Source: Streptomyces sp. 1222.5 (GTDB lineage Bacteria > Actinomycetota > Actinomycetes > Streptomycetales > Streptomycetaceae). From it: a stretch of DNA of 64,000 nt. The first letter of the stretch is position 1, and each line of letters starts with the position of its first letter. Below, one piece after another: positions 20,597-36,331 of this stretch. The position numbers were made by a program, and so were the translations under genes. Under the pieces are notes generated by a model. That model had not been told where the DNA came from, ran no database searches, and was given only the letters and a program-made list of their open reading frames with translations. The stretch lies in NCBI RefSeq assembly GCF_900105245.1, contig NZ_FNSZ01000001.1, forward strand, positions 2,790,001 through 2,854,000. The letters are read 5' to 3'.

Positions 20597-20651
20597 AGCC
20601 GCCGCCGAGCACGACGAAGGCCCTCCGCCGAAGCGAAGGGCCTTCTTCCTG

Positions 20652-20724
20652 TACCCCCGACCGGATTCGAACCGGCGCTACCGCCTTGAGAGGGCGGCGT
20701 GCTAGGCCGCTACACAACGGGGGC
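20652..20724 (-). tRNA. tRNA-Glu (anticodon CTC)
   Basis: Read on the minus strand, a 73-nt cloverleaf begins GCCCCCG. The anticodon loop CTCTCAA is enclosed by CCGCC/GGCGG, and the T-arm GGTTCGAATCC is present. CCA is not encoded. Confidence 0.95.
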
Positions 20725-20752
20725 CTGGACTCTGCGTTTCCGCAGGTCCGAG

Positions 20753-20824
20753 CTGGTCTACCTGGACTCGAACCAAGACTAACTGAACCAGAATCAGTCG
20801 TGCTGCCAATTACACCATAGACCA
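20753..20824 (-). tRNA. tRNA-Gln (anticodon CTG)
   Basis: 72-nt cloverleaf on the minus strand with acceptor TGGTCTA/TAGACCA, anticodon loop TTCTGGT in stem ACTGA/TCAGT, T-arm with GGTTCGAGTCC and discriminator G. Confidence 0.95.
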
Positions 20825-20845
20825 ATGATGGTTTAGACCAGTCAG

Positions 20846-20918
20846 TACCCCCGACCGGATTCGAACCGGCGCTACCGCCTTGAGAGGGCGGCGTGCTAGG
20901 CCGCTACACAACGGGGGC
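20846..20918 (-). tRNA. tRNA-Glu (anticodon CTC)
   Basis: Identical over its length to the tRNA-Glu at 20652-20724 (same acceptor GCCCCCG, anticodon loop CTCTCAA). Confidence 0.95.
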
Positions 20919-20947
20919 CCTAGCGATCCCGACAAGATCAGGATCAG

Positions 20948-21020
20948 TACCCCCGACCGGATTCGAACCGGCGCTACTGCCTTGAGAGGGCAGCGTGCTA
21001 GGCCGCTACACAACGGGGGC
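20948..21020 (-). tRNA. tRNA-Glu (anticodon CTC), compensated stem variant
   Basis: Same as the other two tRNA-Glu genes except for one compensatory pair in the anticodon stem (CTGCC/GGCAG in place of CCGCC/GGCGG), which shows the fold is under selection. Confidence 0.95.
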
Positions 21021-21041
21021 TTTGCAGATGAGCTCTGCGAG

Positions 21042-21113
21042 CTGGCCTACCTGGACTCGAACCAAGACTAACTGAACCAGAATCAGTCGTGCTGCCAATT
21101 ACACCATAGGCCA
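21042..21113 (-). tRNA. tRNA-Gln (anticodon CTG)
   Basis: 72-nt cloverleaf with acceptor TGGCCTA/TAGGCCA; the rest equals the other tRNA-Gln at 20753-20824. The acceptor differs by a compensated base pair. First tRNA of the minus-strand array Gln-Glu-Glu-Gln-Glu. Confidence 0.95.
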
Positions 21114-22091: not shown

Positions 22092-23576
22092 TCAGGCGGC
22101 GAGCTTCGCCAGCGCCGCGTCGATCCTGGCCAGCGTCGTCTCCTTGCCCAGGACCTCGAGGGACTCGAAGAGGGGCAGGCCGACCGTGCGGCCGGTCACG
22201 GCGACCCGGACCGGGGCCTGGGCCTTGCCGAGCTTGAGACCGTGGGCCTCGCCGGCGGCCAGGACGGCCTCCTTGAGCGACTCGGCGGAGGTCCAGTCGG
22301 CGGCGTCGAGCTTCTCGCGGGCCGTGCGCAGGAGGGCGTCGCTGCCCTCCTTCATGGCCTTGGTCCAGGAGGCCTCGTCGAAGACCGGCTCCGCCAGGAA
22401 CAGGAAGTCGACGTTCTCCGTGATCTCGGAGAGGACCTTCAGACGGGTCTGGGCGTGCGGGGCGATCGCCTGCCACTTGGCCTCGTCGAAGTCCTCCGGC
22501 GCCCAGGGGGCGAAGGGGGCCTTCAGCCACGTCCGGCAGCGCTCGGTGAACTCCTTCACCTCCAGCATGCGGATGTGGTCGGCGTTGATCGCCTCGCACT
22601 TCTTCAGGTCGAAGCGCGCCGGGTTGGGGTTCACGTCGGCGATGTCGAAGGCGGCGACCATCTCGTCGATCGAGAAGACGTCCTGGTCGGCGGAGAGCGA
22701 CCAGCCGAGCAGTGAGAGGTAGTTGAGCAGGCCCTCGGGCAGGAAGCCCTTCTCGCGGTAGAGGTTGAGGGAGGCCTGCGGGTCGCGCTTGGACAGCTTC
22801 TTGTTGCCCTCGCCCATCACGTACGGCAGGTGGCCGAAGGCCGGGGTCTGCTTGGCGATGCCCAGCTCGGTGAGCGCCTTGTAGAGGGCGACCTGGCGCG
22901 GGGTGGAGGAGAGCAGGTCCTCGCCGCGCAGGACGTGGGTGATGTCCATCAGGGCGTCGTCGACCGGGTTGACCAGCGTGTACAGCGGGGCGCCGTTGGC
23001 TCGGACGATGCCGTAGTCCGGCACGTTCTCCGGCGTGAAGGTCAGCTCGCCGCGGACCAGGTCGTCGAACGTGATCGCCTCGTCCGGCATGCGGAAGCGG
23101 ACGATCGGGGCGCGGCCCTGGGCCTTGTACTCCTCGACCTGCTCGGCGGTCAGGTCGCGGCAGTGACCGTCGTAGCCGGAGGGCTTGCCGGCGGCGCGGG
23201 CGGCCTCGCGGCGGCTGTCCAGCTCCTCCTGGGAGCAGTAGCAGTGGTACGCGTACCCGCCGTCGAGCAGCTTCCGGGCGACGTCGGCGTAGATGTCCAT
23301 GCGCTGCGACTGGCGGTACGGCGCGTGCGGGCCGCCGACCTCGGGGCCCTCGTCCCAGTCGAAACCGAGCCAGCGCATCGCGTCGAGCAGCTGGTTGTAC
23401 GACTCCTCGGAGTCGCGGGCCGCGTCGGTGTCCTCGATGCGGAAGACCAGGGTGCCCTGGTGGTGCCGGGCGAACGCCCAGTTGAACAGGGCGGTGCGCA
23501 CCAGGCCCACGTGGGGGTTACCGGTGGGCGAGGGGCAGAAACGGACGCGTACGGGTGAGCCGGGTGCGCTAGCCAC
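22092..23576 (-). CDS. gltX: Glutamyl-tRNA synthetase
   Basis: 494 residues, class I synthetase. HIGH-like motif in [22 protein letters not shown] near residue 45, and KMSKS-like motif KLSKRD near residue 245. Most actinobacteria lack GlnRS and use a non-discriminating GluRS plus GatCAB amidotransferase; the adjacent tRNA-Glu/tRNA-Gln cluster fits this. I chose the GTG at 23576, inside the end of the upstream FAH gene; a TTG three codons earlier (23585) is possible. Confidence 0.95.
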
Positions 23577-24354
23577 GCTTGACAACCTTGTTGGTGAGAG
23601 TGCCGATGCCTTCGATGGTGACGGCGACCTCGTCGCCGACGTTGAGGGGGCCGACCCCCGCGGGGGTGCCGGTGAGGATGACGTCGCCCGGGAGCAGGGT
23701 CATGGCCTCGGAGATGTTGACGACCAGGTCCTCGATGGGGTGGGTCATCTGGCTCGTGCGGCCCAGCTGGCGTTGTTCGCCGTTGACCGTGAGCTGGACG
23801 GTGAGGTCGTTCGCGCGGTCGAGGTCCAGGTCCGTCTCCACCCAGGGGCCGAGCGGGCACGAGGTGTCGAAGCCCTTCGCCCGGGCCCACTGCTTCTCGC
23901 GCTTCTGCACGTCGCGGGCGGTGACGTCGTTGGCGCAGGTGTAGCCGAGGATCACGTCCTTGACCCGCTCGCGCGGGACCTCGCGGCACATGCGGCCGAT
24001 GACGACGGCCAGCTCGGCCTCGTGGTGCAGTTCCTCGGAGAACGGCGGGTACTGGATGTCGTCGCCGGGGCCGATCACCGAGGTGGAGGGCTTGAAGAAG
24101 GCGAACGGCGCCTCGGGCACCTCGTTGCCCAGCTCGCGCGCGTGCTCGGCGTAGTTCCGGCCGAACGCCACGACCTTGTTGGGGAGGACCGGCGGAAGCA
24201 GCCTGACCTTGCTCAGCGGCACCTTCGTGCCGGACAGCTCGTAGTCCGCGAACGGGATGCCCTTGACGATGTCGAGGACGAGTTCGTCCTCCTTGCCGCC
24301 CTCGACCGCGCCGAAGGCAACGTTCCCGTCGATGGAGAACCTGGCGATGCGCAC
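23569..24354 (-). CDS. Fumarylacetoacetate hydrolase (FAH)-family protein
   Basis: 261 residues. The C-terminal FAH fold spans about residues 55-260, with [15 protein letters not shown], the metal-binding acids in [25 protein letters not shown] and [11 protein letters not shown]. Members hydrolyse C-C bonds of acylpyruvates or tautomerise/decarboxylate oxaloacetate; which one cannot be told here. GTG start. Its last codons overlap the gltX start by eight bases, so the two genes are co-transcribed. Confidence 0.9.
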
Positions 24355-24945: not shown

Positions 24946-25005
24946 AAAAACCGAGCGCGGCCCGGAGGATCGTCGCGGATGCGTGATCCTCCGGGCCGCG
25001 CTCGG
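24946..25005 (-). terminator. Very strong Rho-independent terminator of the NPRRT peptide gene
   Basis: A perfect 21-bp stem (arms 24951-24971 and 24985-25005, loop of 13) is followed on the minus strand by GGTTTTTCC. It lies 36 bases beyond the stop of the peptide gene and is one of the longest perfect stems in the window. Confidence 0.9.
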
Positions 25006-25040
25006 CGGGCCGGTGCCCGAATGGCGTAGCGTCCGGTCGG

Positions 25041-25220
25041 CTACTCGCCGGCCGCGACTCCCGCGCCGACCGGCACGTCCATCAGGACGGTGCGCCGGGG
25101 GTTGGCCGTCTGCGTGGGCAGGTCGACGGAGTGTTCCGGCAGCTCGGGCGTCTGCATGGCACCGGCGTCGTCGAGGTGCGCCAGGGTCGTGCGTCGCGGG
25201 TTGGCTATGTTGCGGAACAT
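25041..25220 (-). CDS. 59-residue peptide with duplicated ANPRRTxL motif
   Basis: The ATG at 25220 is preceded by GGTGAGGA at ribosome-binding distance; an upstream in-frame start would add five residues. The motif ANPRRT(T/V)L occurs twice, at residues 6-13 and 39-46, each followed by A/M and an acidic/hydrophobic pair, separated by a Pro/Glu/Thr-rich linker. The two DNA copies differ at silent positions (CCGCGACGCACG against CCCCGGCGCACC), so selection acts on the peptide. There is no signal peptide or cysteine. A 21-bp terminator follows. I recognise no family; a modified-peptide precursor or a docking peptide are guesses. Confidence 0.7.
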   Translation of the reverse strand: MFRNIANPRRTTLAHLDDAGAMQTPELPEHSVDLPTQTANPRRTVLMDVPVGAGVAAGE

Positions 25221-25803
25221 CGTCGTCGTCCTCACCGTTGTGGTCCTGTGCCCTCTGATCGAGTCGGTTGTCAGAGTCGTCCCTCTTGTAAAGCGTCAGG
25301 CTAAACATCGAATTCCCCGCCCGGACGGGCAACTGCCCATGATCGGCATGTGAGTTTGCTCACGACCTCACGGGCAAATCGGTCAATTCCGACCGACAAC
25401 TCGGGCCTGCGAAACGGACATTGCGCCCCTGAAGCCATCATTCCGCTCCTGATCATGTCGACTGGGACACGTGACACCGAGCGACGACTCGCAGGTGTAC
25501 GTCCGGTTCGTACCGAATCACCCTCCACGCCTCGTAGTGCGTCACTCACACGCCGTCACGGAGGTCACAGCTCGGGACACGGCTCTTGTTGGAGATCCTG
25601 CACTGTGCTGGAATTCCACGGACCGCCGCGGGATCGAGCCGGCGCACGGGGCGCGACGCAGCGCCGGGTGGCGGTGGGACAGGGGGGAACCAGCGCCGGT
25701 CACTCAAGACCACCGGAGTGCGTATTCAGGGCGCTCTCCAAACGCCGACACCGTGTCCCTCCGTTCGCGCGGAGGGGTGCCTGGTCCAGAGGTTGCGACG
25801 CTA
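25221..25803. other. Promoter region between the peptide gene and cvnA1
   Basis: About 580 bp between divergent genes. It includes an inverted repeat TCGGTC-N6-GACCGA at 25379-25396 and AT-richer patches near 25280-25310 and 25430-25460. The cvnA1 frame stays open leftward to 25471, but that part reads as non-coding (Arg/His/Trp mix, no family match). Confidence 0.5.
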
Positions 25804-28800
25804 GTGCAGGGACGTTTCAAGAGGGATGGCAGCGCTTCGGCGGAGCCGGAGCCGCGCGACGGGACTGGCCCCATGAAGGGCAGCGCCTCGCCCCAGCACG
25901 CCCAGAACCCGGGTCCGGGTCCGTCCGGCGACGGCGGTGAGCGCTCCGGGCGTCCCGGCGCGTCGACCGCGTCGGCCTCGGCCAAGCCGGCGGGTCCCGG
26001 GAACAACACGCCGAAGGCGAAGCCCGCTCAGGGCCCGACCGGCCCCGGCACGCGGGTGGCGCTGCGCAACTGGCGCATCTCGACGCGTCTGGTGTCGCTG
26101 CTCGCGCTGCCCGTGGTCGCGGCGACCTCGCTGGGCGCGCTGCGCATCAACCAGTCCATGGACGACATCCAGCAGCTCGACAACATGAAGCTGCTGACGG
26201 AGATGACCAAGCAGGCCACCGAGCTGGCCATGCAGCTCCAGGACGAGCGCGACCAGTCGGCCGGCCCCCTGGCCCACGGCGGCGCGAACGACTTCACGGT
26301 CAAGGGCCTCCAGGAGAAGACCGACCGGGCCCGCGAGAACTTCCTCAACGCTTCTGAGGAGATCGACGCGGCGAGCAAGGACGGCAACCTCCAGGGCGTC
26401 CGCGACACGCTGGTCGGTCTCGCCAACCAGCTGGACGACCTCTCCAAGATCCGCCAGCACGCCTACCAGTCGAAGGACAACGCGACCCAGACGGTCGAGT
26501 CCTACCACCGGCTCATCACCCAGCTGATCGGCCTGTCCCAGGACATGGCCGAGGCGTCCAGCAACCCCGAGATGATCTCGCGCACCCGCGCCCTGGCGGC
26601 CTTCTCGACCGCCAAGGAGTACGCCTCGATCCAGCGCGCCACGATCGCCGCGGCACTGCCCGCGACGACCGACAGCAAGGGCCACCTCTCCGAGAACGAC
26701 CGCCTCTACGGCCAGTCGGCCTACGAGAGCGAGGGCTCCGAGCTCCAGATCTTCCGCAAGATCTACTCGGACGAAAACGCCGAGGAGCTCCTCAAGCCGA
26801 TCGACGAGGGCAACCCGACGATCAAGACGGCCGACACCTACGCCAAGCGCTCCTTCGAGTCGCGCGACGGCCTGGAGTCGCTGCCCGCCCGTTCGTACCG
26901 CGACTGGGTGGACACCAGCTCGACCAAGATCGAGCAGATGAAGAAGATCGAGCACACGCTGCTCGAGGACATGGAGCAGAAGGCCCGCGAGCTGCGCAAC
27001 GCCTCCGAGCGCGAGGCGATCATCTCCGGTGCGCTGATCCTCATCGTCCTCGGCGTGTCACTCGTCGGCGCGTTCGTCGTGGCCCGCTCCATGATCCGCT
27101 CGCTGCGCCGCCTGCAGGAGACCGCCACCAAGGTCGCCCAGGACCGTCTGCCCGAGCTGGTCAAGCAGCTCTCCGAGTCCGACCCGCAGGACGTCGACAC
27201 GTCCGTGGAGTCGGTCGGTGTGCACTCCCGGGACGAGATCGGCCAGGTGGCCGCGGCCTTCGACGACGTGCACCGCGAGGCGGTCCGACTCGCCGCCGAG
27301 CAGGCCCTGCTGCGGGGCAACGTCAACGCGATGTTCACCAACCTCTCGCGCCGCTCCCAGGGCCTCATCCAGCGCCAGCTGTCGCTGATCTCCGAACTCG
27401 AGTCCCGCGAGGCCGACCCGGACCAGCTGTCCTCGCTGTTCAAGCTCGACCACCTCGCGACCCGCATGCGCCGTAACGGTGAGAACCTCCTCGTCCTCGC
27501 GGGTGAGGAGCCCGGCCGGCGCTGGACCCGCCCGGTCCCGCTGGTCGACGTGCTCCGCGCCGCCGCGTCCGAGGTGGAGCAGTACGAGCGCATCGAACTG
27601 GCCGCCGTGCCGACGACCGAGGTCGCCGGCCGCGTGGTCAACGACCTCGTGCACCTGCTCGCCGAGCTGCTGGAGAACGCCACCTCGTTCTCCTCCCCGC
27701 AGACCAAGGTCAAGGTCACCGGTCACGCGCTGCCCGACGGCCGCGTGCTGATCGAGATCCACGACACCGGTATCGGCCTCTCCCCCGAGGACCTCGCGGC
27801 GATCAACGAGCGGCTCGCCTCGCCGCCCACCGTGGACGTCTCCGTCTCCCGCCGCATGGGCCTCTTCGTGGTCGGTCGTCTGTCCCAGCGCCACGGCATC
27901 CGCATCCAGCTGCGCCCGTCCGACTCGGGTGGTACGACCGCGCTGGTCATGCTCCCCGTCGACGTCGCCCAGGGCGGCAAGAAGCCCGCGGGCGGCAAGC
28001 CCGGCGCTCCCATCGGCTCCGGTGGCCCCGCCGCCGCGCAGGCCGCCGCCGGTGTGGCCGCGGCCCGACGGCAGAACGGCGGCAACGGCGGCGGCCCGGC
28101 CGGTGGCGGTCTGCTCGGTGCCGGTTCCGGCCCGCGCGGCCAGGTCGGCGCGGGCCAGGGTCCCCGGGCCGCGCTGCCCGGCACGGGCCAGGGCGGCCGT
28201 CCCGGTGCGCCGGGCGGAGCCCGTGGTCCGCAGGGTGGCCCCGGTGGCCCGCAGCAGGGCGGCCGACCGATGCCCGCGGGTTCCGGTGCGGGCGCCTTCG
28301 GCGGCCAGGCACCCGGTGTCCCGCAGGGTCTGCAGTCCCCGAACCAGGGCGGATCGCAGCAGGACCTCTTCGGCGGCCGTGGCCAGCAGCGTCCCACCGC
28401 CTCGGACCAGGGCCGTCAGCCCCAGCTGCCGCCGCGTGGCGGCCCGCGGGCCGAACTGCCCGGCGGCGAACCGCAGTCGCGCACCCCGGACTGGGGCGGC
28501 ACCCACGCCCCGCCGTCCCGCGCCTCGCTGGACGCCCCGCGCGGCCACGACGAGCAGGACTCGGCGCAGACCTCGCGCATGCCGCGCGTGGACGACCGGC
28601 AGGGCCCCGGCTCGACCTCGGAGATGCCGCGCATCGACGCGGGGCCGGCCGCCACGGGCGAGTTCCCGCGCGCCGAGCTGAACGGCATGAACGGCATGAA
28701 CGGCCCGCAGAACACGGGGCAGTTCGCCCGTCCGGACAACCCGCAGAACACGGGCCGGTACGCGCGTCCCGACGCCGGTGGCCAGGACCCGTTCGCACCG

Positions 28801-29541
28801 CGGCCCGCCGACGGTCAGGGCTCCGGTTCGTTCGTCCGCCCCGACGTGTTCGGCACATCGGCGCCCGGGCAGCAGAACAACGGCGCTCAGAACACGGGGC
28901 AGTTCGCGGCCCCGCAGGCTTACAACGGCGGTTACGACAACGGCTCCACCGGGCAGCACGCCCTGCCGGGCCGTCAGAACCCGCAGAACACGGGTCAGTT
29001 CGAGCGTCCGCAGCCGACCGGCCGGGACGACTACGCCGCCCCGCGTCCGCCGGCCCAGCAGCGTCCGGTCCGCCACGAGCCGGAGGCCCTGCCCCCGGCC
29101 AGCGGTCCGGGTGACGGCCGTACCCCGCTGTACGACACGCTGGAGACCAACTGGTTCCACGGTCAGCAGCAGGGTGGCGCGCCGGCGCCGGCACCGCAGC
29201 AGTCGCAGGCACCCGCCCCGGCTCCGCAGCGCCCGGCTCCCAGCACCGGCTCCTGGCGCACCTCGCCGAACGACGAACTCGTCCGGCAGGCAGAGCGCGT
29301 CCGGCAGCCCGCCGCGGGCGGGATCACCACCTCCGGTCTGCCGCGCAGGGTCCCCCGGGCGAACCTGGTCCCGGGTACGGCCCAGCAGCAGCAGAACCAA
29401 ACCGGTCCGCAGGTCTCGCGTGCGCCTGACGACGTGCGCGGACGGCTGACCAATCTTCGTCGGGGCATCGCTCAGGGCCGTCAGGCCGGCAGCGGCCAGA
29501 CCGGCAGCTTCCCGAGCCCCACTCACCAGCAGGAGCGTTAG
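25804..29541 (+). CDS. cvnA1: Nitrate-sensor-type histidine kinase-like protein of conservon 1
   Basis: 1245 residues from the GTG at 25804. Order: disordered N-terminus, TM1 (about 95-112), extracytoplasmic NIT-type helical sensor (about 115-400), TM2 (about 405-425), HAMP, a DHp-like region with KLDHLATRMRRNGENLLVLAGEE, and a HATPase domain (LLENATSFSSPQTKVKV, HDTGIGLSPEDL, RRMGLFVVGRLSQRHG). Then comes a 500-residue Gly/Pro/Gln-rich tail with QNTGQF-type repeats and a conserved end SGLPRRVPRANLVPG...VSRAPDDVRGRLTNLRRG. In conservons CvnA anchors a membrane complex with CvnB, C and D. AGAGGTTG sits 11 bases before the start, as it does at cvnA2. Confidence 0.9.
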   Translation: MQGRFKRDGSASAEPEPRDGTGPMKGSASPQHAQNPGPGPSGDGGERSGRPGASTASASAKPAGPGNNTPKAKPAQGPTGPGTRVALRNWRISTRLVSLLALPVVAATSLGALRINQSMDDIQQLDNMKLLTEMTKQATELAMQLQDERDQSAGPLAHGGANDFTVKGLQEKTDRARENFLNASEEIDAASKDGNLQGVRDTLVGLANQLDDLSKIRQHAYQSKDNATQTVESYHRLITQLIGLSQDMAEASSNPEMISRTRALAAFSTAKEYASIQRATIAAALPATTDSKGHLSENDRLYGQSAYESEGSELQIFRKIYSDENAEELLKPIDEGNPTIKTADTYAKRSFESRDGLESLPARSYRDWVDTSSTKIEQMKKIEHTLLEDMEQKARELRNASEREAIISGALILIVLGVSLVGAFVVARSMIRSLRRLQETATKVAQDRLPELVKQLSESDPQDVDTSVESVGVHSRDEIGQVAAAFDDVHREAVRLAAEQALLRGNVNAMFTNLSRRSQGLIQRQLSLISELESREADPDQLSSLFKLDHLATRMRRNGENLLVLAGEEPGRRWTRPVPLVDVLRAAASEVEQYERIELAAVPTTEVAGRVVNDLVHLLAELLENATSFSSPQTKVKVTGHALPDGRVLIEIHDTGIGLSPEDLAAINERLASPPTVDVSVSRRMGLFVVGRLSQRHGIRIQLRPSDSGGTTALVMLPVDVAQGGKKPAGGKPGAPIGSGGPAAAQAAAGVAAARRQNGGNGGGPAGGGLLGAGSGPRGQVGAGQGPRAALPGTGQGGRPGAPGGARGPQGGPGGPQQGGRPMPAGSGAGAFGGQAPGVPQGLQSPNQGGSQQDLFGGRGQQRPTASDQGRQPQLPPRGGPRAELPGGEPQSRTPDWGGTHAPPSRASLDAPRGHDEQDSAQTSRMPRVDDRQGPGSTSEMPRIDAGPAATGEFPRAELNGMNGMNGPQNTGQFARPDNPQNTGRYARPDAGGQDPFAPRPADGQGSGSFVRPDVFGTSAPGQQNNGAQNTGQFAAPQAYNGGYDNGSTGQHALPGRQNPQNTGQFERPQPTGRDDYAAPRPPAQQRPVRHEPEALPPASGPGDGRTPLYDTLETNWFHGQQQGGAPAPAPQQSQAPAPAPQRPAPSTGSWRTSPNDELVRQAERVRQPAAGGITTSGLPRRVPRANLVPGTAQQQQNQTGPQVSRAPDDVRGRLTNLRRGIAQGRQAGSGQTGSFPSPTHQQER

Positions 29542-29964
29542 TTGAGTCCGATGAGCCAGGCGGCACAGAACCTGAACTGGTTGATCACCAACTTCGTGGA
29601 CAACACCCCTGGGGTGTCCCACACGGTGGTGGTCTCCGCCGACGGCCTTCTGCTGGCGATGTCCGAAGGTTTCCCGCGGGACCGCGCCGACCAGCTGGCG
29701 GCCGTCGCGTCCGGGTTGACCTCCCTGACGGCCGGGGCGTCCCGGATCTTCGAGGGCGGCGACGTGGCACAGACGGTCGTCGAGATGGAACGCGGCTTCC
29801 TCTTCCTGATGTCCATCTCGGACGGGTCGTCCCTCGCGGTCCTGGCCCATCCCGAGGCGGACATCGGCCTCGTCGGCTACGAGATGGCACTGCTCGTCGA
29901 CCGCGCGGGTGCGGTACTCACTCCGGATCTGCGCGCCGAACTTCAGGGAAGTCTGCTTCACTGA
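29542..29964 (+). CDS. cvnB1: Roadblock/LC7 protein of conservon 1
   Basis: 140 residues with a single roadblock/LC7 fold: NLNWLITNFVDNTPGVSHTVVVSADGLLLAMSEG, then FLFLMSISDGSSLAVLAHPEADIG. Roadblock proteins modulate small GTPases, here CvnD. AGGAG lies seven bases before the TTG at 29542, directly after the cvnA1 stop; an ATG three codons in (29551) is the alternative. Nearly identical to cvnB2, including at DNA level over its first 110 bases. Confidence 0.92.
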   Translation: MSPMSQAAQNLNWLITNFVDNTPGVSHTVVVSADGLLLAMSEGFPRDRADQLAAVASGLTSLTAGASRIFEGGDVAQTVVEMERGFLFLMSISDGSSLAVLAHPEADIGLVGYEMALLVDRAGAVLTPDLRAELQGSLLH

Positions 29965-30076
29965 CCTCCCGCGGCACCACCCACCTCACAAAAACACCGT
30001 CCGGCCGCCACAATCCCCCCACCGGCCCCGCTCAGACGGCTTGACTGACCGACTTGCTGTCCCGCCCGGAGGATTC

Positions 30077-30475
30077 ATGACCCCGCCCACCGCCCATCAT
30101 GATCCGTACGCGGAGTCGTACGGGGACGAGGGCGACCAGCCGCTGGTGCGGCCGTACGCGATGACGGGCGGCCGGACCCGGCCGCGCTACCAGCTCGCCA
30201 TCGAGGCACTGATCAGCACCACGGCCGACCCGGCCGCGCTCATGGGCCTGCTCCCGGAGCACCAGCGCATCTGCCACCTGTGCCGGGAGGTCAAGTCGGT
30301 CGCGGAGGTCTCCGCGCTGCTGGCCATGCCGCTCGGCGTGGCCCGGATCCTGGTGGCCGACCTCGCCGAGGCCGGCCTGGTCGCCATCCACCAGCCGGGT
30401 GGCGACGAGAACAACGGCGGCGCTCCGGATGTGACGCTGCTCGAAAGGGTGCTCAGTGGACTTCGCAAGCTCTGA
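30077..30475 (+). CDS. cvnC1: DUF742 protein of conservon 1
   Basis: 132 residues. DUF742 core VRPYAMTGGRTRPRYQLAIEALI, HQRICHLCREVKSVAEVSALLAMPLGVARILVADLAEAGLV, ending LLERVLSGLRKL. The core has winged-helix character and a C-x-x-C pair (CHLC), which could bind metal or redox-switch. The ATG has GGAGG four bases upstream. Its 3' end overlaps cvnD1 by 20 bases. Confidence 0.92.
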   Translation: MTPPTAHHDPYAESYGDEGDQPLVRPYAMTGGRTRPRYQLAIEALISTTADPAALMGLLPEHQRICHLCREVKSVAEVSALLAMPLGVARILVADLAEAGLVAIHQPGGDENNGGAPDVTLLERVLSGLRKL

Positions 30476-31031
30476 CACGGGCCGGGCCACCACCTCGGCG
30501 AAGATCGTGGTGGCGGGCGGCTTCGGCGTGGGCAAGACCACGTTCGTCGGCGCCGTCTCGGAGATCAACCCGCTGCGCACAGAGGCCGTCATGACGTCCG
30601 CGTCCGCCGGCATCGACGATCTCACCCACACCGGGGACAAGACCACCACGACGGTGGCCATGGACTTCGGCCGTATCACCCTCGACCAGGACCTGATCCT
30701 GTACCTCTTCGGTACCCCGGGCCAGGACCGCTTCTGGTTCATGTGGGACGACCTGGTCCGCGGCGCCATCGGCGCGGTGGTGCTCGTGGACACCCGGCGC
30801 CTGGCCGACTGCTTCCCCGCGGTCGACTACTTCGAGAACTCGGGTCTGCCGTTCGTCGTCGCCCTCAACGGCTTCGACGGCCAGCAGCCCTACCAGCCGG
30901 AGGAGGTGCGCGAGGCGCTGCAGATCGGGCCGGACACCCCGATCATCTCGACCGACGCCCGTCACCGCTCCGACGCGAAGAGCGCGCTGATCACGCTGGT
31001 GGAGCACGCCCTGATGGCGCGCCTGCGCTAG
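30456..31031 (+). CDS. cvnD1: Conservon 1 small GTPase (ATP/GTP-binding protein)
   Basis: 191 residues, Ras-like P-loop protein. Walker A GGFGVGKTTFVG near residue 20, switch region with DDLTHTGDKTTTTVAMDFGRI, G3-like LFGTPGQDRFWFMW and G4-like ALNGFDG in place of NKxD. These are the MglA-related GTPases of conservons; CvnB may act as GAP or scaffold. The GTG start lies inside the cvnC1 end. A 264-bp tract (30513-30776) differs at only one base from cvnD2. Confidence 0.93.
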   Translation: MDFASSDTGRATTSAKIVVAGGFGVGKTTFVGAVSEINPLRTEAVMTSASAGIDDLTHTGDKTTTTVAMDFGRITLDQDLILYLFGTPGQDRFWFMWDDLVRGAIGAVVLVDTRRLADCFPAVDYFENSGLPFVVALNGFDGQQPYQPEEVREALQIGPDTPIISTDARHRSDAKSALITLVEHALMARLR

Positions 31032-31072
31032 CACTCAAGTACGACGCGCGCTACGGCAGTTGCCGTAAGGAA

Positions 31073-31115
31073 ACCGGAGCCGGCTGTGGCCTTTGACACG
31101 GCCGGCTCCGGTGTT
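31073..31115 (+). terminator. Terminator of conservon 1
   Basis: A 16-bp stem (ACCGGAGCCGGCTGTG against its complement with one G-T pair), loop GCCTTTGA and following GTT, 41 bases after the cvnD1 stop. About 290 bp with no gene follow before cvnA2, presumably its promoter. Confidence 0.8.
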
Positions 31116-31408
31116 CATAACAGTTCGGCAGAGGAATCGCCCGGTATCGCCACGCGACGCGTTCGGGCGGTGCCGCTGCGCTCACAAACGCCCCGTCTTT
31201 TGGCGGGGCTCGTTCTTTATGACCGTTTTATCTGGGACTTACAAGAGCGTGCTCCACGGGTTTCCACTGTTTGGAAGTGCACTGGTCCACGTGCTGGAAT
31301 GCCTGAACTGCCCAATGGTCAACGACGTACTGCGTGGTCGATGACGAAACGGGCTCTGAGAGACTGCGGCACGACGAAGGTGCCGACCGCCGAGAGGTTG
31401 TTGGTCGA

Positions 31409-34400
31409 GTGAGGCGAAGCAAGAACGGTCCCGAGCCGTCGGCGCGGGGCAACTTCACCCCGCCGCCGCGCGCTGCGGCGCCCACCCCTGTGCAGGGTGC
31501 GGAGCCGGCGGCCACTCCCGCGTCGAGCGGCGGCCGCTTCTCACCGCGCAACTGGCGGGTGCCTACCCGTCTGAACGCGATTCTGCTCATACCCGTGGCG
31601 GTCGGTCTCGTCATGGGCGGCTTCCAGGTGAAGGCCTCGATCGACACCTGGCAGCAGGCCCGCGACGCCGAGAGCACCGCCCGCCTGGTGCGCGCCTCGC
31701 TCGCCTACGCCGACGCCCTCGAGAACGAGCGTGACGTCACCGCGGCTCCCCTGCTGAAGGCCAAGAAGACCGGCACCGACAAGGCGACCATCGACGCGGC
31801 CCGCAAGGCCACGGACCAGGCCGCCGACGGTTTCGACCAGGCCGCGCAGAGCATGCCCGACGACTCGGGTCTGCAGCGCCGGCTGAAGCTGTTCCGCGAG
31901 GTCGAGCCGAAACTGGCGCAGCTGCGGGCCGCCGCGTACACCTCCAAGATGATCGGTGTCGACACCGAAGAGGGTTACGTCGGGATCAGCCACCCCCTGA
32001 TGGAGTTCGCCAACGAGCTCGGTCTGGGCACCGGCAACATCACCTCCTACGGCCGTACCGTCTACGCCATCTCGCTGACCAAGGCCGCCCTGTCGCTGGA
32101 GCGGTCGATCGGTACGCACCTGCTGGTCAAGCCGGGCCCGGACGCCGGCAACCTGGCCACGCAGCGGACCTCCCTGTCCTCGTACGCCTACCTGGAGCGC
32201 ATCGCCCGGGAGGAGTACCTCGGCGGTGGTACCGAGGCCGACGCGCAGAAGCTGAGCGACGCCGAGAACAAGGTCAAGTCCGACGCCGCCGAACTGGCCA
32301 AGAAGGCCGCTACGGGCAACGACAGCTACGTTCCGCCGCCGTCCGGCGCGACCGACATGGTCGTCCGCCTCGCCTCCATGAGGGACACCACCACGCTCAC
32401 CCGTGAGGCGCTGGCGACCAAGGGCATCACCCTGGACAACTGGTGGGCGGTCAACACGCTGAAGTACAAGGCCTACCGCCAGATCGAGTCGGACATGGCC
32501 GACACCGCGGTGAACGAGGCCTCGTCCATCGCCGACGACGCCAAGACCTCGGCGTTCATCACCGGTGCCGTCGTCGTGATCGCTCTGCTGTTGGCCTTCA
32601 TCCTGGCCGGTCTGGTGGCCCGCCAGATGAGCCGCTCGATGCGCCAGCTGCGCAACGCCGCCTTCGGCATCGCCGAGCAGCGTCTGCCGATGCTCGTCGA
32701 CCAGCTCTCCCGTACCGACCCCGGCCGGGTCGACACCCGGGTCGCCCCGATCCCGATCCACACCAAGGACGAGATCGGCGAGGTCGCCCGCGCCTTCGAC
32801 CAGGTCCACCGCGAGGCGGTCCGGCTCGCCTCCGAGCAGGCCCTGCTGCGGGGCAACATCAACGCGATCTTCACCAACCTGTCGCGCCGCAACCAGTCGC
32901 TGATCGAGGGCCAGCTGACCCTGATCACCGACCTGGAGAACAACGAGGCCGACCCGGACCAGCTGGAGAACCTCTTCAAGCTGGACCACCTGGCCACCCG
33001 TATGCGCCGCAACGGCGAGAACCTCCTGGTCCTCGCCGGCGAGGAGCCCGGCCGCCGCTGGGACCAGCCGGTCCCGCTGGTCGACGTCCTGCGTGCCGCC
33101 TCCTCCGAGGTGGAGCAGTACGAGCGCATCGAGCTGTCGGGCGTGCCGGAGGCCGAGATCCACGGCCGCGCGGTCACCGACCTCGTGCACCTGCTCGCCG
33201 AGCTGCTGGAGAACGCCACCACGTTCTCCTCCCCGCAGACCAAGGTCCGCGTGACGGCGACCCGACTCCCCGACGGCCGCGTCATGATCGAGATCCACGA
33301 CAAGGGCATCGGTCTGACGGCCGAGGACTTCGCGGACATCAACCACAAGCTGGCCAACCCGCCGACCGTGGACGCCGCGATCTCCCAGCGCATGGGCCTG
33401 TTCGTGGTCGGCCGGCTGTCCGACCGGCACGGCATCCGGGTCCAGCTGCGCCCCTCGGGCGAGCAGGCCGGTACGACCTCCCTGGTCATGCTGCCGGACG
33501 CGATCACGCACGGCGGTGGCGGCGAGACCCTGGAGCGCGAGGAGTTCACGGTCTCGCAGATCATCCCGGAGCAGCAGTTCCAGGCCGAGAACTTCAGCCA
33601 GGTGCAGCCGATGCGCACCGCCGCCGAACTCGGCTTCGACGACACCCAGTACACGGACGTCCCCGACGACATCCGCGATCTGAACCCCGTCGGCCGCTCG
33701 CTGATGCGTGAGGAGCGCCGCGCGGCGCTGGAGGCGCAGACGCACGGCATGCCGGGCCAGCCGCAGCAGGAGAGCGGGGAGTCCCCCGCCGAGTACCGCG
33801 ACGGGTTCCAGGCGCAGCAGCCCTACGACGGCAGCAGCACCGGCTACCCGGAGCAGTCGTACCAGGAGCAGCAGCAGGCTTCGTACGAGGAGCAGCAGCA
33901 CACCGCGTACCAGGAGTCCTACGAGCAGCCGTACGACGAGCAGTACTACGCGCCGAACGGCGGTCTGCCGCAGGACAACGGCTACTCCGCGAACGGCGGT
34001 TACCCGGACCCGGCGTACGCCGAGCCCCCTCAGGAGGAGCAGCGGTCCGCGCGCGGCCAGGAGGCCGACGGGTTCGGCTCCTACGAGGCCCCGTCCTACC
34101 AGGACGACTGGCCGCAGCAGGACGCTTACCGCAACGGCCGGCCGGCCCAGTACGCTCCGGAGCCGGAGTCCCCGCAGGCCGGTGACGCGAGTGAGCGGAA
34201 CCGCGTAGGCTTCGACCGTCCGGGAACGGCCTCTCCCGCCTCCCACGAGCTGACCGACGCCGGGCTGCCCCGCCGCGGTTCCGCGGCGAGCGGCTCCAAC
34301 GGTGCGGCCGGTGCGAACGGCCAGGCGCAAGTGCGGCAGGAGACGCCGTCTCCCGCGCCGGGCAACGTCCCGGCGACCAACGGCGACAACGGCTGGCGTT

Positions 34401-34681
34401 CGGCGAACGACACGCGGTGGCAGCAGGCCTCGCAGCTCCGCAAGCCGAAGGCGGGCGGGGTCACCGCCTCCGGTCTGCCGCGGCGGGTGCCCAAGGCCAA
34501 TCTGGTCGAGGGCGCCGCTGAGACCACCCCCCAGGGAGGCCCTCAGGTCTCCCGCGCCCCGGAGGACGTCCGGGGCAGGCTGAGCAACCTGCGCAGGGGC
34601 GTCCAGCGCGGACGCAGCGCAGGCAGTGATACGAACGGCCAGGGCTTCGGTCCTGACAGCACCTACAACCAGGAGCGTTAG
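31409..34681 (+). CDS. cvnA2: Nitrate-sensor-type histidine kinase-like protein of conservon 2
   Basis: 1090 residues from the GTG at 31409. TM1 about 54-74, NIT-type sensor about 75-375, TM2 about 381-404, HAMP, DHp-like region and HATPase (LLENATTFSSPQTKVRV, HDKGIGLTAEDF, QRMGLFVVGRLSDRHG). The tail is Gln/Tyr/Glu-rich (SYQEQQQ, AYQESYEQPYDEQ) and ends in the same conserved segment as CvnA1, SGLPRRVPKANLVEG...VSRAPEDVRGRLSNLRRG. The kinase parts of the two CvnA proteins are similar, the sensors and tail linkers much less. The AGAGGTTG box 11 bases before the start is shared. Confidence 0.9.
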   Translation: MRRSKNGPEPSARGNFTPPPRAAAPTPVQGAEPAATPASSGGRFSPRNWRVPTRLNAILLIPVAVGLVMGGFQVKASIDTWQQARDAESTARLVRASLAYADALENERDVTAAPLLKAKKTGTDKATIDAARKATDQAADGFDQAAQSMPDDSGLQRRLKLFREVEPKLAQLRAAAYTSKMIGVDTEEGYVGISHPLMEFANELGLGTGNITSYGRTVYAISLTKAALSLERSIGTHLLVKPGPDAGNLATQRTSLSSYAYLERIAREEYLGGGTEADAQKLSDAENKVKSDAAELAKKAATGNDSYVPPPSGATDMVVRLASMRDTTTLTREALATKGITLDNWWAVNTLKYKAYRQIESDMADTAVNEASSIADDAKTSAFITGAVVVIALLLAFILAGLVARQMSRSMRQLRNAAFGIAEQRLPMLVDQLSRTDPGRVDTRVAPIPIHTKDEIGEVARAFDQVHREAVRLASEQALLRGNINAIFTNLSRRNQSLIEGQLTLITDLENNEADPDQLENLFKLDHLATRMRRNGENLLVLAGEEPGRRWDQPVPLVDVLRAASSEVEQYERIELSGVPEAEIHGRAVTDLVHLLAELLENATTFSSPQTKVRVTATRLPDGRVMIEIHDKGIGLTAEDFADINHKLANPPTVDAAISQRMGLFVVGRLSDRHGIRVQLRPSGEQAGTTSLVMLPDAITHGGGGETLEREEFTVSQIIPEQQFQAENFSQVQPMRTAAELGFDDTQYTDVPDDIRDLNPVGRSLMREERRAALEAQTHGMPGQPQQESGESPAEYRDGFQAQQPYDGSSTGYPEQSYQEQQQASYEEQQHTAYQESYEQPYDEQYYAPNGGLPQDNGYSANGGYPDPAYAEPPQEEQRSARGQEADGFGSYEAPSYQDDWPQQDAYRNGRPAQYAPEPESPQAGDASERNRVGFDRPGTASPASHELTDAGLPRRGSAASGSNGAAGANGQAQVRQETPSPAPGNVPATNGDNGWRSANDTRWQQASQLRKPKAGGVTASGLPRRVPKANLVEGAAETTPQGGPQVSRAPEDVRGRLSNLRRGVQRGRSAGSDTNGQGFGPDSTYNQER

Positions 34682-34682
34682 T

Positions 34683-35105
34683 GTGAGCCCGATGAGCCAG
34701 GCGGCACAGAACCTGAACTGGTTGATCACCAACTTCGTGGACAACACCCCGGGGGTGTCCCACACGGTGGTGGTCTCCGCCGACGGACTCCTTCTGGCGA
34801 TGTCCGAAGGCTTCCCCCGCGACCGCGCCGACCAGCTCGCCGCCGTCGCCTCCGGTCTGACCTCGCTGACCGCCGGTGCCTCGCGCATCTTCGAGGGCGG
34901 CAGCGTGAACCAGACGGTTGTGGAGATGGAGCGGGGATTCCTCTTCATCATGTCCGTTTCCGACGGGTCGTCCCTCGCGGTTCTGGCCCATCCAGAGGCG
35001 GACATCGGTCTCATCGGGTACGAGATGGCACTTCTGGTGGACCGGGCGGGCACGGTTCTCACCCCGGATCTCCGCGCGGAGCTCCAGGGAAGCCTTCTCA
35101 ACTAG
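34683..35105 (+). CDS. cvnB2: Roadblock/LC7 protein of conservon 2
   Basis: 140 residues, differing from CvnB1 at only a handful of positions (for example SVNQ against DVAQ, and FIMSVSD against FLMSISD). The GTG at 34683 follows the cvnA2 stop by one base with AGGAG upstream; ATG 34692 is the alternative. Expected to pair with CvnD2 and, given the identity, possibly with CvnD1. Confidence 0.92.
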   Translation: MSPMSQAAQNLNWLITNFVDNTPGVSHTVVVSADGLLLAMSEGFPRDRADQLAAVASGLTSLTAGASRIFEGGSVNQTVVEMERGFLFIMSVSDGSSLAVLAHPEADIGLIGYEMALLVDRAGTVLTPDLRAELQGSLLN

Positions 35106-35199
35106 TAATCGGACGGTGCGTATTCGCGTCCCGGGGCCGTAAGGTTTCGGGACGCGGCTCCACAGGTTTGGGCGCCCGGCGCAGTCGGAGGAGGAGAAA

Positions 35200-35769
35200 G
35201 TGGCAACACCCCCAGGCGGTTCGTCTTCGGGCAATTGGTCGTACGGCCCTGCCCAGGGCCAGGGCGACGGTTCGGCGAACCGGTACAACTTCCCCTCCGC
35301 ACCCAGCCACCGGCAGCCGTACGCCCCGCAGGGCCCAGGTCCGTCGCCGTACGACCAGCCGCCTACGCCGCGGATCCAGCCGGTGCAGCCGCAGCGCCGC
35401 CCCGAGCCGGCGCCGGCCTCGGCGTCCCACAATCCCCTGGTGCGTCCGTACGCCATGACCGGCGGCCGGACCCGCCCGCGCTACCAGCTCGCCATCGAGG
35501 CACTGGTGCACACCACCGCCGCTCCGCACCAGATGCAGGGCCAGCTGCCCGAGCATCAGCGGATCTGCAACCTGTGCCGGGAGATCAAGTCGGTGGCCGA
35601 GGTCTCGGCCCTCCTCACGATTCCCCTCGGCGTGGCCAGGATCCTCGTCGCCGACTTGGCGGAGGCGGGCCTGGTCGCCATCCATCAGCCCGGCGGCGAC
35701 GAGAACGCCGGTGGCCAGCCAGACGTGACACTGCTCGAAAGGGTGCTCAGTGGACTTCGCAAGCTCTAG
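35200..35769 (+). CDS. cvnC2: DUF742 protein of conservon 2 with long N-terminal extension
   Basis: 189 residues. The DUF742 core matches CvnC1 (MTGGRTRPRYQLAIEALV, HQRICNLCREIKSVAEVSALL), but it is preceded by about 80 Pro/Gln/Ser/Tyr-rich, probably disordered residues, against about 25 in CvnC1. The GTG start has a very strong GGAGGAGGAG upstream. It overlaps cvnD2 by 20 bases. Confidence 0.92.
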   Translation: MATPPGGSSSGNWSYGPAQGQGDGSANRYNFPSAPSHRQPYAPQGPGPSPYDQPPTPRIQPVQPQRRPEPAPASASHNPLVRPYAMTGGRTRPRYQLAIEALVHTTAAPHQMQGQLPEHQRICNLCREIKSVAEVSALLTIPLGVARILVADLAEAGLVAIHQPGGDENAGGQPDVTLLERVLSGLRKL

Positions 35770-36331
35770 CGGCGGTCCTTCCCGCTCCACCACCTCCGCG
35801 AAGATCGTGGTTGCGGGCGGCTTCGGCGTGGGCAAGACCACGTTCGTCGGCGCCGTCTCGGAGATCAACCCGCTGCGCACAGAGGCCGTCATGACGTCCG
35901 CGTCCGCCGGCATCGACGACCTCACCCACACCGGGGACAAGACCACCACGACGGTGGCCATGGACTTCGGCCGTATCACCCTCGACCAGGACCTGATCCT
36001 GTACCTCTTCGGTACCCCGGGCCAGGACCGCTTCTGGTTCATGTGGGACGACCTGGTCCGCGGCGCCATCGGCGCGATCGTCCTGGTCGACACCCGGCGC
36101 CTGGCCGACTGCTTCCCCGCGGTCGACTACTTCGAGAACTCGGGCCTGCCCTTCGTCATCGCCCTCAACGGCTTCGACGGCAACCAGCCCTACCAGCCGG
36201 ACGAGGTGCGCGAGGCGCTGCAGATCGGCCCCGACACCCCGATCATCACGACCGACGCCCGTCACCGCGCGGACGCCAAGTCGGCGCTGATCACGCTGGT
36301 CGAGCACGCCCTGATGGCCCGCCTGCGCTAG
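35750..36331 (+). CDS. cvnD2: Conservon 2 small GTPase
   Basis: 193 residues, same P-loop (GGFGVGKTTFVG) and switch motifs as CvnD1. The N-terminus differs (SSSGGPSRSTTS), and the rest is almost identical in protein and DNA. Last gene of conservon 2, followed by a terminator. Confidence 0.93.
   Translation: MDFASSSGGPSRSTTSAKIVVAGGFGVGKTTFVGAVSEINPLRTEAVMTSASAGIDDLTHTGDKTTTTVAMDFGRITLDQDLILYLFGTPGQDRFWFMWDDLVRGAIGAIVLVDTRRLADCFPAVDYFENSGLPFVIALNGFDGNQPYQPDEVREALQIGPDTPIITTDARHRADAKSALITLVEHALMARLR

Follow-up and report, generated by a model that had tools for sequence, protein, structure and literature searches.

Peptides and docking adaptors that act through bivalent short linear motifs carry two identical short motifs on a disordered linker. 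Among the proteins associated with conservons, the accessories CvnE and CvnF contain a GAF or P450 domain and are paired with CvnA proteins in which a sensory domain is missing, and CvnF8 binds and stimulates CvnA8, according to the accessible part of PMC13343842. In this work we analyzed a small gene located next to conservon 1 of Streptomyces sp. 1222.5, in a window of 64,000 nucleotides (the whole stretch of DNA analyzed, to which all coordinates refer). Its product contains one short motif twice and is called here the two-hook protein. Like the CvnE and CvnF accessories, it is encoded next to a conservon; unlike them, as described in the same accessible part of PMC13343842, it is 64 residues long, has no matched domain and is encoded on the opposite strand. 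In particular, Pfam revealed neither a GAF nor a P450 domain in it, and CvnA1 has a NIT domain, in contrast to the CvnA proteins without an extracytoplasmic sensory domain treated in that text. With the bivalent short-linear-motif peptides it shares two copies of one short motif, joined by a linker for which disorder is predicted; it differs from them in that its family is found in no library searched and its partner is only a candidate. In our estimation the chances are about even that the two-hook protein is a disordered bivalent docking peptide that grips a slowly evolving partner.

Structure and distribution of the two-hook gene

The two-hook gene is real and conserved beyond chance, as confirmed by its distribution, by codon evidence and by tallies of its motifs. 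The following features were located in and around it:

25244–25247, minus strand: AGGA, probable ribosome-binding site of the GTG start (upstream strings compared by eye)
25041–25235, minus strand: coding sequence of the two-hook protein, 64 residues (probable start GTG 25235–25233, stop 25043–25041)
25182–25205, minus strand: motif 1, ANPRRTTL, residues 11–18 (from the translation)
25110–25181, minus strand: linker between the motifs, residues 19–42, whose length and sequence differ among family members
25083–25109, minus strand: motif 2, TANPRRTVL, residues 43–51 (from the translation)
24951–25005, minus strand: intrinsic terminator with a perfect 21-bp stem and a 13-nt loop, then a T-run (inverted-repeat search and RNA fold)

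The original prediction started the protein at ATG 25220, five codons downstream of GTG 25235, and gave it 59 residues. An ATG or GTG exactly 10 codons ahead of motif 1 and followed by a basic codon was found in 140 of 164 distinct sequences and at 180 of 216 loci (with genomes repeated among the loci), while the remaining 24 sequences include members from divergent genera with different N-termini. Since the start position is kept so widely, the 64-codon form is preferred over the shorter one and GTG 25235 is most likely the start of the gene. The AGGA lies at a spacing from this GTG that is usual for a ribosome-binding site. The protein has a pI of about 6.0, many family members keep an MKTT-like N-terminal segment, and inspection by eye revealed no hydrophobic signal segment in its sequence; we infer that it is cytosolic.

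The terminator proved to be exactly as predicted in this strain, with stem arms at 24951–24971 and 24985–25005 followed by TTTTT on the minus strand, and its RNA folds at -56.5 kcal/mol (z -9.8 against 200 shuffles). As a family trait it was rejected, since a hairpin of at least 8 pairs with a T-run was detected at 16 of 101 loci versus 10 of 101 mononucleotide shuffles. Stems of at least 15 pairs, with the T-run not required, occurred at 14 of 60 and 9 of 41 loci versus 3 and 2 block-shuffled ones (two-base blocks, which only approximate a dinucleotide shuffle). The 21-bp terminator is thus a local feature of this strain, and because it is not conserved, the step from a strong terminator to abundant expression does not generalize.

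Homologues of the two-hook protein were found throughout the Streptomycetaceae. A single-sequence search within the genus Streptomyces revealed them in 197 of 199 genomes, the misses being G001 (79% complete) and G010 (93% complete). A profile search of the family at E≤1 matched 149 of 150 genomes, missing G326 (71% complete) and reaching G212 only at E 0.05. With a broad profile at E≤1e-4, a homologue was present in 393 of 394 family genomes that were at least 95% complete, belonging to 15 of 16 genera; 392 of these genomes contained a single match and one, G867, contained two. The only miss here was G212, the sole sampled member of its genus, which gave no match in a further family search as well. 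In a scan of named genomes, the best 80 of 576 loci all belonged to Streptomyces, and on this ground the genus and family searched are taken to be Streptomyces and Streptomycetaceae. In the genome of strain 1222.5 itself the next match had an E-value of only 0.6 and contained one stop.

Outside the family, 268 genomes gave no match better than E 0.0048, and about 354 genomes of the class (394 minus 40 family members, repeating the genomes of the previous search) gave ten matches with E-values of 0.0014–0.01, none of them credible. Seven of the twelve weak outside matches (ten plus two) contained one ANPR- or NPRRT-like string and none contained two, and they were taken as chance; the large outside searches scored 15–21 first-look candidates per genome, so that a divergent relative could escape them. 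No match to the two-hook protein was found in the plasmid and phage collections. The original prediction was to be given up if homologues with the motif were lacking, and the search came out decisively the other way. Given its presence in all but one of the 394 family genomes and the lack of credible matches outside, the two-hook gene is a lineage-defining part of Streptomycetaceae. As a small ORF it is ordinary; as an uncharacterized lineage-defining gene it is unusual.

The protein had been predicted to belong to no known family, which was borne out by the libraries. No model for it was found in Pfam (at E≤10 for the 59-residue form), NCBIfam or PHROGs, and no match among PDB sequences at E≤10. 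When 56 family members were scanned at E≤1, Pfam returned nine families, all weak and in one or two members each, with no GAF or P450 among them, and NCBIfam likewise returned scattered weak matches. None of the libraries searched thus contains a relative of this protein family, while the principle by which it is proposed to work, bivalency of a short motif, is familiar. The literature searched, mostly open-access texts without supplements, yielded no function for the protein; SCO5545, vnz_25885 and guessed locus tags gave no text matches, and the matches to NPRRT were irrelevant by title. Judging from locus numbering and gene order, the gene probably corresponds in S. coelicolor to SCO5545, a "putative uncharacterized protein": its number falls between SCO5544, which is cvnA1, and SCO5546, a protein of wide conservation (PMC3224560, accessible part) and presumably the FAA hydrolase. 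SVEN_5239 of S. venezuelae is possibly this gene too; should the small ORF lack an annotation in that genome, the tag could instead belong to the FAA hydrolase.

Two conserved motifs on a variable linker

In the 64-residue form ANPRRT begins at residues 11 and 44, which agrees with the predicted distance of 33 residues. It had also been stated that the two copies use different silent codons; this is true of P, the first R and T, three of the seven shared residues, and not of the other four. The broader claim that the repeat is kept at the protein level is strongly backed by the codon comparison and the motif tallies given below. The core of the family is A-N-P-x-R-T-x-L, present twice at a distance of 30–51 residues.

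In an alignment of 56 members A-N-P-x-R-T in motif 1 and T-A-N-P-x-R-T in motif 2 were invariant. A larger set of 162 distinct proteins was collected with a pre-filter, a DNA pattern for A-N-P-x-R/S-T at both motifs plus an in-frame distance, so that the filter itself accounts for part of the invariance in this set; it puts no constraint on position x, on the residues flanking the motifs or on the linker. Position x was occupied by R in 161 proteins and K in one in motif 1, and by R in 150, K in 10, E in one and N in one in motif 2. The L position was L in 158 and V in four proteins in motif 1 and L in 160 of 162 in motif 2, a count favored by the pairing rule, which required L or V after the motif. 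The T directly before motif 2 was present in all 162 proteins and the P at +11 of motif 2 in 158. The spacing was 33 in 118 of the 162, with a range of 30–51, and the linker was net negative in 154 (median charge -5, range -9 to 0).

Both motifs were matched by the pattern at 106 of 111 family loci chosen without the pre-filter, a set in which several genomes are present more than once and the best-scoring loci are over-represented. By subset, the pattern matched 30 of 30 loci from the genus single-sequence search and 30 of 30 from the family profile search (the best-scoring ones in both, with overlapping genomes), four of five family loci from the 268-genome search, 34 of 38 loci mostly picked for divergence and 8 of 8 in a further set. 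Two of the five failures (L066 and L090) represent one genome, G298, which reads ANPQRT and ANVRRT. The third (L086) reads HRQPRRT in a genome that is 76% complete, the fourth (L098) has ANPRRI as motif 2, and the fifth (L095; G196:C12:58267-66419) is a second, frame-broken copy with an intact copy on the same contig.

Several single loci deserve mention. G298 is the most divergent genus member among those examined and indicates which motif positions can change, and the second copy in G196 may be an assembly artefact. One family member (L097) terminates at TANPRRTVR. At another locus (L072; G203:C2:4691189-4699368) a third in-frame ANPRRT is located 27 codons upstream of motif 1, ahead of the probable start.

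The genome of strain 1222.5 contains 35 sites that fit a degenerate NPRRT DNA pattern, which also admits NPSST, NPSRT and similar strings, versus five for the reversed control pattern. No second two-motif protein was found among the 30 of these 35 sites that were examined. NPRRT strings in a permease-like and a Ku-like frame were considered as a clue to the partner and were judged by eye to be chance.

Codon comparison of 600 random pairs of 110 distinct coding sequences, all with motifs 33 residues apart and a start codon 10 codons ahead of motif 1, gave a pooled pS of 0.292 and pN of 0.099 over the whole coding sequence. In the same pairs pN was 0.141 in the linker, 0.0002 in motif 1 (partly by construction) and 0.043 in motif 2, and the median dN/dS was 0.28 in the 594 pairs where it was computable. 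Purifying selection therefore acts on the two-hook protein, the core of which is formed by the motifs.

AlphaFold2 returned a model with a mean pLDDT of 65, a pTM of 0.24 and one 4-residue helix; such low confidence is often scored by 64-residue chains. The highest pLDDT, 83, was found at residues 41–50, around motif 2. From this model the protein is predicted to be largely disordered.

The divergent cvnA1 gene and the common control region

Four further features belong to the neighborhood of the two-hook gene:

23569–24354, minus strand: FAA-hydrolase gene, the conserved neighbor on the other side (Pfam and synteny)
25350–25363, no strand assigned: inverted repeat GTGAGCAAACTCAC of the form GTGA-N3-9-TCAC, in the divergent control region
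25421–25444, minus strand: counterpart of the S. coelicolor ScbR2 site, with three mismatches in 24 positions to the published sco5544-5545 site (PMC4595836, accessible part)
25873–29541, plus strand: cvnA1, the divergent neighbor, with NIT, HAMP and HATPase domains (start from an inferred ATG)

The cvnA1 product is histidine-kinase-like, and its NIT domain was matched in Pfam at E 8.5e-46. The start of cvnA1 may be GTG 25804 rather than ATG 25873, as the stretch VQGRFKRDG is located upstream of the ATG in a block that is highly conserved among 57 Streptomyces sequences; it can also be read in G010. The tandem conservons cvn1 and cvn2 occupy 25873–36331 of the window. The C-terminal tail of CvnA1 recurs in CvnA2 (GLPRRVPxANLV and VRGRLxNLRRG) and might serve for docking; by eye, a likeness of GLPRRVPxANLV to the peptide motif is possible. 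Five clustered tRNA genes, Glu(ctc) and Gln(ctg), were found at 20651–21113 on the minus strand.

The neighborhood was followed for three genes in 46 loci, consisting of divergent genera and outliers with a few genomes taken twice. Within the stretches examined, a CvnA1 match was detected in all 46, the FAA hydrolase in 42 and gltX in 32. As predicted, the two-hook gene is divergent to conservon 1, and this holds in all 42 loci carrying the peptide pattern; the FAA-hydrolase gene lies on the strand of the peptide, on its other side, in 38 of them and was not detected in four. This synteny may be passive, since gltX and the FAA-hydrolase gene are retained there too.

Several conserved blocks lie between the two-hook gene and cvnA1 in an alignment of 57 Streptomyces sequences. 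One very conserved block, GGAGATCCTGCACTGTGCTGGAATTCC on the plus strand at 25585–25614 of the window, is perhaps the cvnA1 promoter. The repeat GTGAGCAAACTCAC resembles the BldD operator. A repeat of this form was present upstream of the peptide in 100 of 102 loci (absent in L077 and L145; four of the five loci named above as pattern failures, L086, L090, L095 and L098, were left out, a few genomes counted twice), against an expectation of about 0.04 per locus obtained by arithmetic, without a shuffled control. It is also kept in the peptide-less G010 and G212, and thus serves cvnA1 at least. The ScbR2 site is more loosely kept, its best match over 60 loci having 2–11 mismatches, in most cases 4–7.

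The accessible parts of the published studies describe several regulators at this region. The sco5544-5545 pair is an EMSA-confirmed target of ScbR2 (PMC4595836, Table 2), with ScbR2-linked fold changes of 1.024 and 0.952, practically none under the condition of that study (PMC4595836). In the accessible text cvnA1 is a target of BldC, in common with BldD, and WhiAB bind the cvn1 promoter (PMC6428758); BldC and BldD are likewise placed at cvnA1 in PMC5859096, and cvnA1/sven5239 is listed among the WhiB target genes (PMC4850268). The binding of BldC, BldD, WhiB and ScbR2 assigned to cvnA1 in these publications concerns a region common to the two-hook gene, and some of it may concern the latter.

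These data bear on the idea that the peptide is dedicated to the divergent Cvn1 system, as an accessory or regulator whose hooks tune a Cvn1 component in development; this would be a special case of docking. The constant divergent arrangement, the common control region with its repeat and the confirmed binding of ScbR2 to the gene pair (accessible part of PMC4595836) speak for it, together with a role of cvn1 in aerial growth reported in the literature accessible to us. However, G010 and G212 keep gltX, the FAA-hydrolase gene, cvnA1 and the repeat without the peptide, so that Cvn1 can persist where the peptide is missing. Loss of the peptide was not seen to be linked to a loss of development, as the chaplin and SsgA families are kept in both these genomes (and in all 12 of the 12 genomes searched). 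In the outgroup, 12 of 15 genomes contained a CvnA1-like match at E≤1e-60, and the 15 CvnA1-like loci found there had, within about 1.5 kb on each side, no AN[PV]xRT string and no match of more than 60 residues to the FAA hydrolase or gltX at E≤1e-3. Furthermore, the peptide differs from the Cvn accessories known from the accessible part of PMC13343842, which are GAF or P450 proteins paired with a sensor-less CvnA, while CvnA1 bears the NIT domain. Taken together, we regard a dedicated role in Cvn1 as possible though rather unlikely.

Proposed bivalent docking and the remaining alternatives

A bivalent docking peptide had been one of the ideas of the original prediction. It gives the best fit to the two near-invariant motifs, the variable linker and the predicted disorder, while the partner remains a candidate only. 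Two copies of one conserved motif are present, and the linker between them varies in length and sequence, its disorder being predicted from the low-confidence AlphaFold2 model only. We infer docking and bivalency from these features. According to this hypothesis, a small, largely disordered cytosolic protein would present one docking motif twice on a flexible, mostly acidic linker. Each A-N-P-x-R-T-x-L would probably make a turn at Asn-Pro and then a contact through R-T-x-L, and both hooks would fit the same type of pocket, provided by a partner that evolves slowly. The outcome would be the clamping of two subunits of a dimer or the bridging of two partner molecules. The nearest candidate for the partner would be a component of the Cvn1 G-protein system, for example the roadblock protein CvnB1 (proteins of this type are presumably dimers), and the next one a core growth or sporulation protein. 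A partner in Cvn1 is weakened by the persistence of cvnA1 in G010 and G212 and by the fact that the motif is unchanged in a genus (L143–L145) whose CvnA1 shows only 29–33% identity over the matched stretches.

It is improbable that the hooks bind nucleic acid, with NPRR turns contacting DNA or RNA at two sites. NPRR turns resemble the SPKK-type motifs, which are minor-groove binders, and each molecule has two basic Asn-Pro turns; however, the protein has a pI of about 6.0 and a linker that is almost always net negative. In addition, K, E, N or Q can take the place of the first R. This tolerance speaks against binding through mere charge or to nucleic acid and favors a specific turn in which the R-T-x-L contact is fixed.

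The original prediction also proposed a precursor with core repeats, i.e., a RiPP or pheromone precursor in which the repeats would serve as core or recognition segments and undergo modification, cleavage and export. The small size, the repeated motif and the MKTT-like segment of many members would suit such a precursor, but no maturase, protease or transporter was recognized among the window ORFs around the gene, whose neighbors are the FAA-hydrolase gene, gltX and cvn1, and no RiPP precursor model was among the NCBIfam or Pfam matches. The protein also has no hydrophobic segment by eye, and the motif is near-invariant across the family, while RiPP cores usually diversify. We therefore consider a precursor very improbable.

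That the locus encodes a conserved sRNA or leader, in which the ORF arose by chance, is most improbable: the hairpin of this strain is strong and the upstream DNA is conserved, but pS is about three times pN over the coding sequence, the start position is kept, the frame is held despite changes in linker length (the pattern itself required an in-frame distance), the three Rfam matches were all below the gathering score and other family members do not keep the hairpin. A leader peptide for a downstream gene was rejected as well, since here the terminator (25005–24951) intervenes before the next same-strand gene, which starts at 24354; this exclusion rests on this strain, the terminator not being conserved elsewhere.

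Within the bivalent docking hypothesis, a more specific version would make the peptide a dedicated bivalent clamp or decoy on both faces of a dimeric Cvn1 component such as CvnB1, setting when Cvn1 signals and co-controlled with cvnA1 by BldC, BldD, WhiAB and ScbR2. We know of no earlier small-peptide regulator of a conservon and consider this version quite unlikely. If it is true, each developmental switch would adjust receptor and clamp together, and the clamp would be a lineage-defining invention of Streptomycetaceae.
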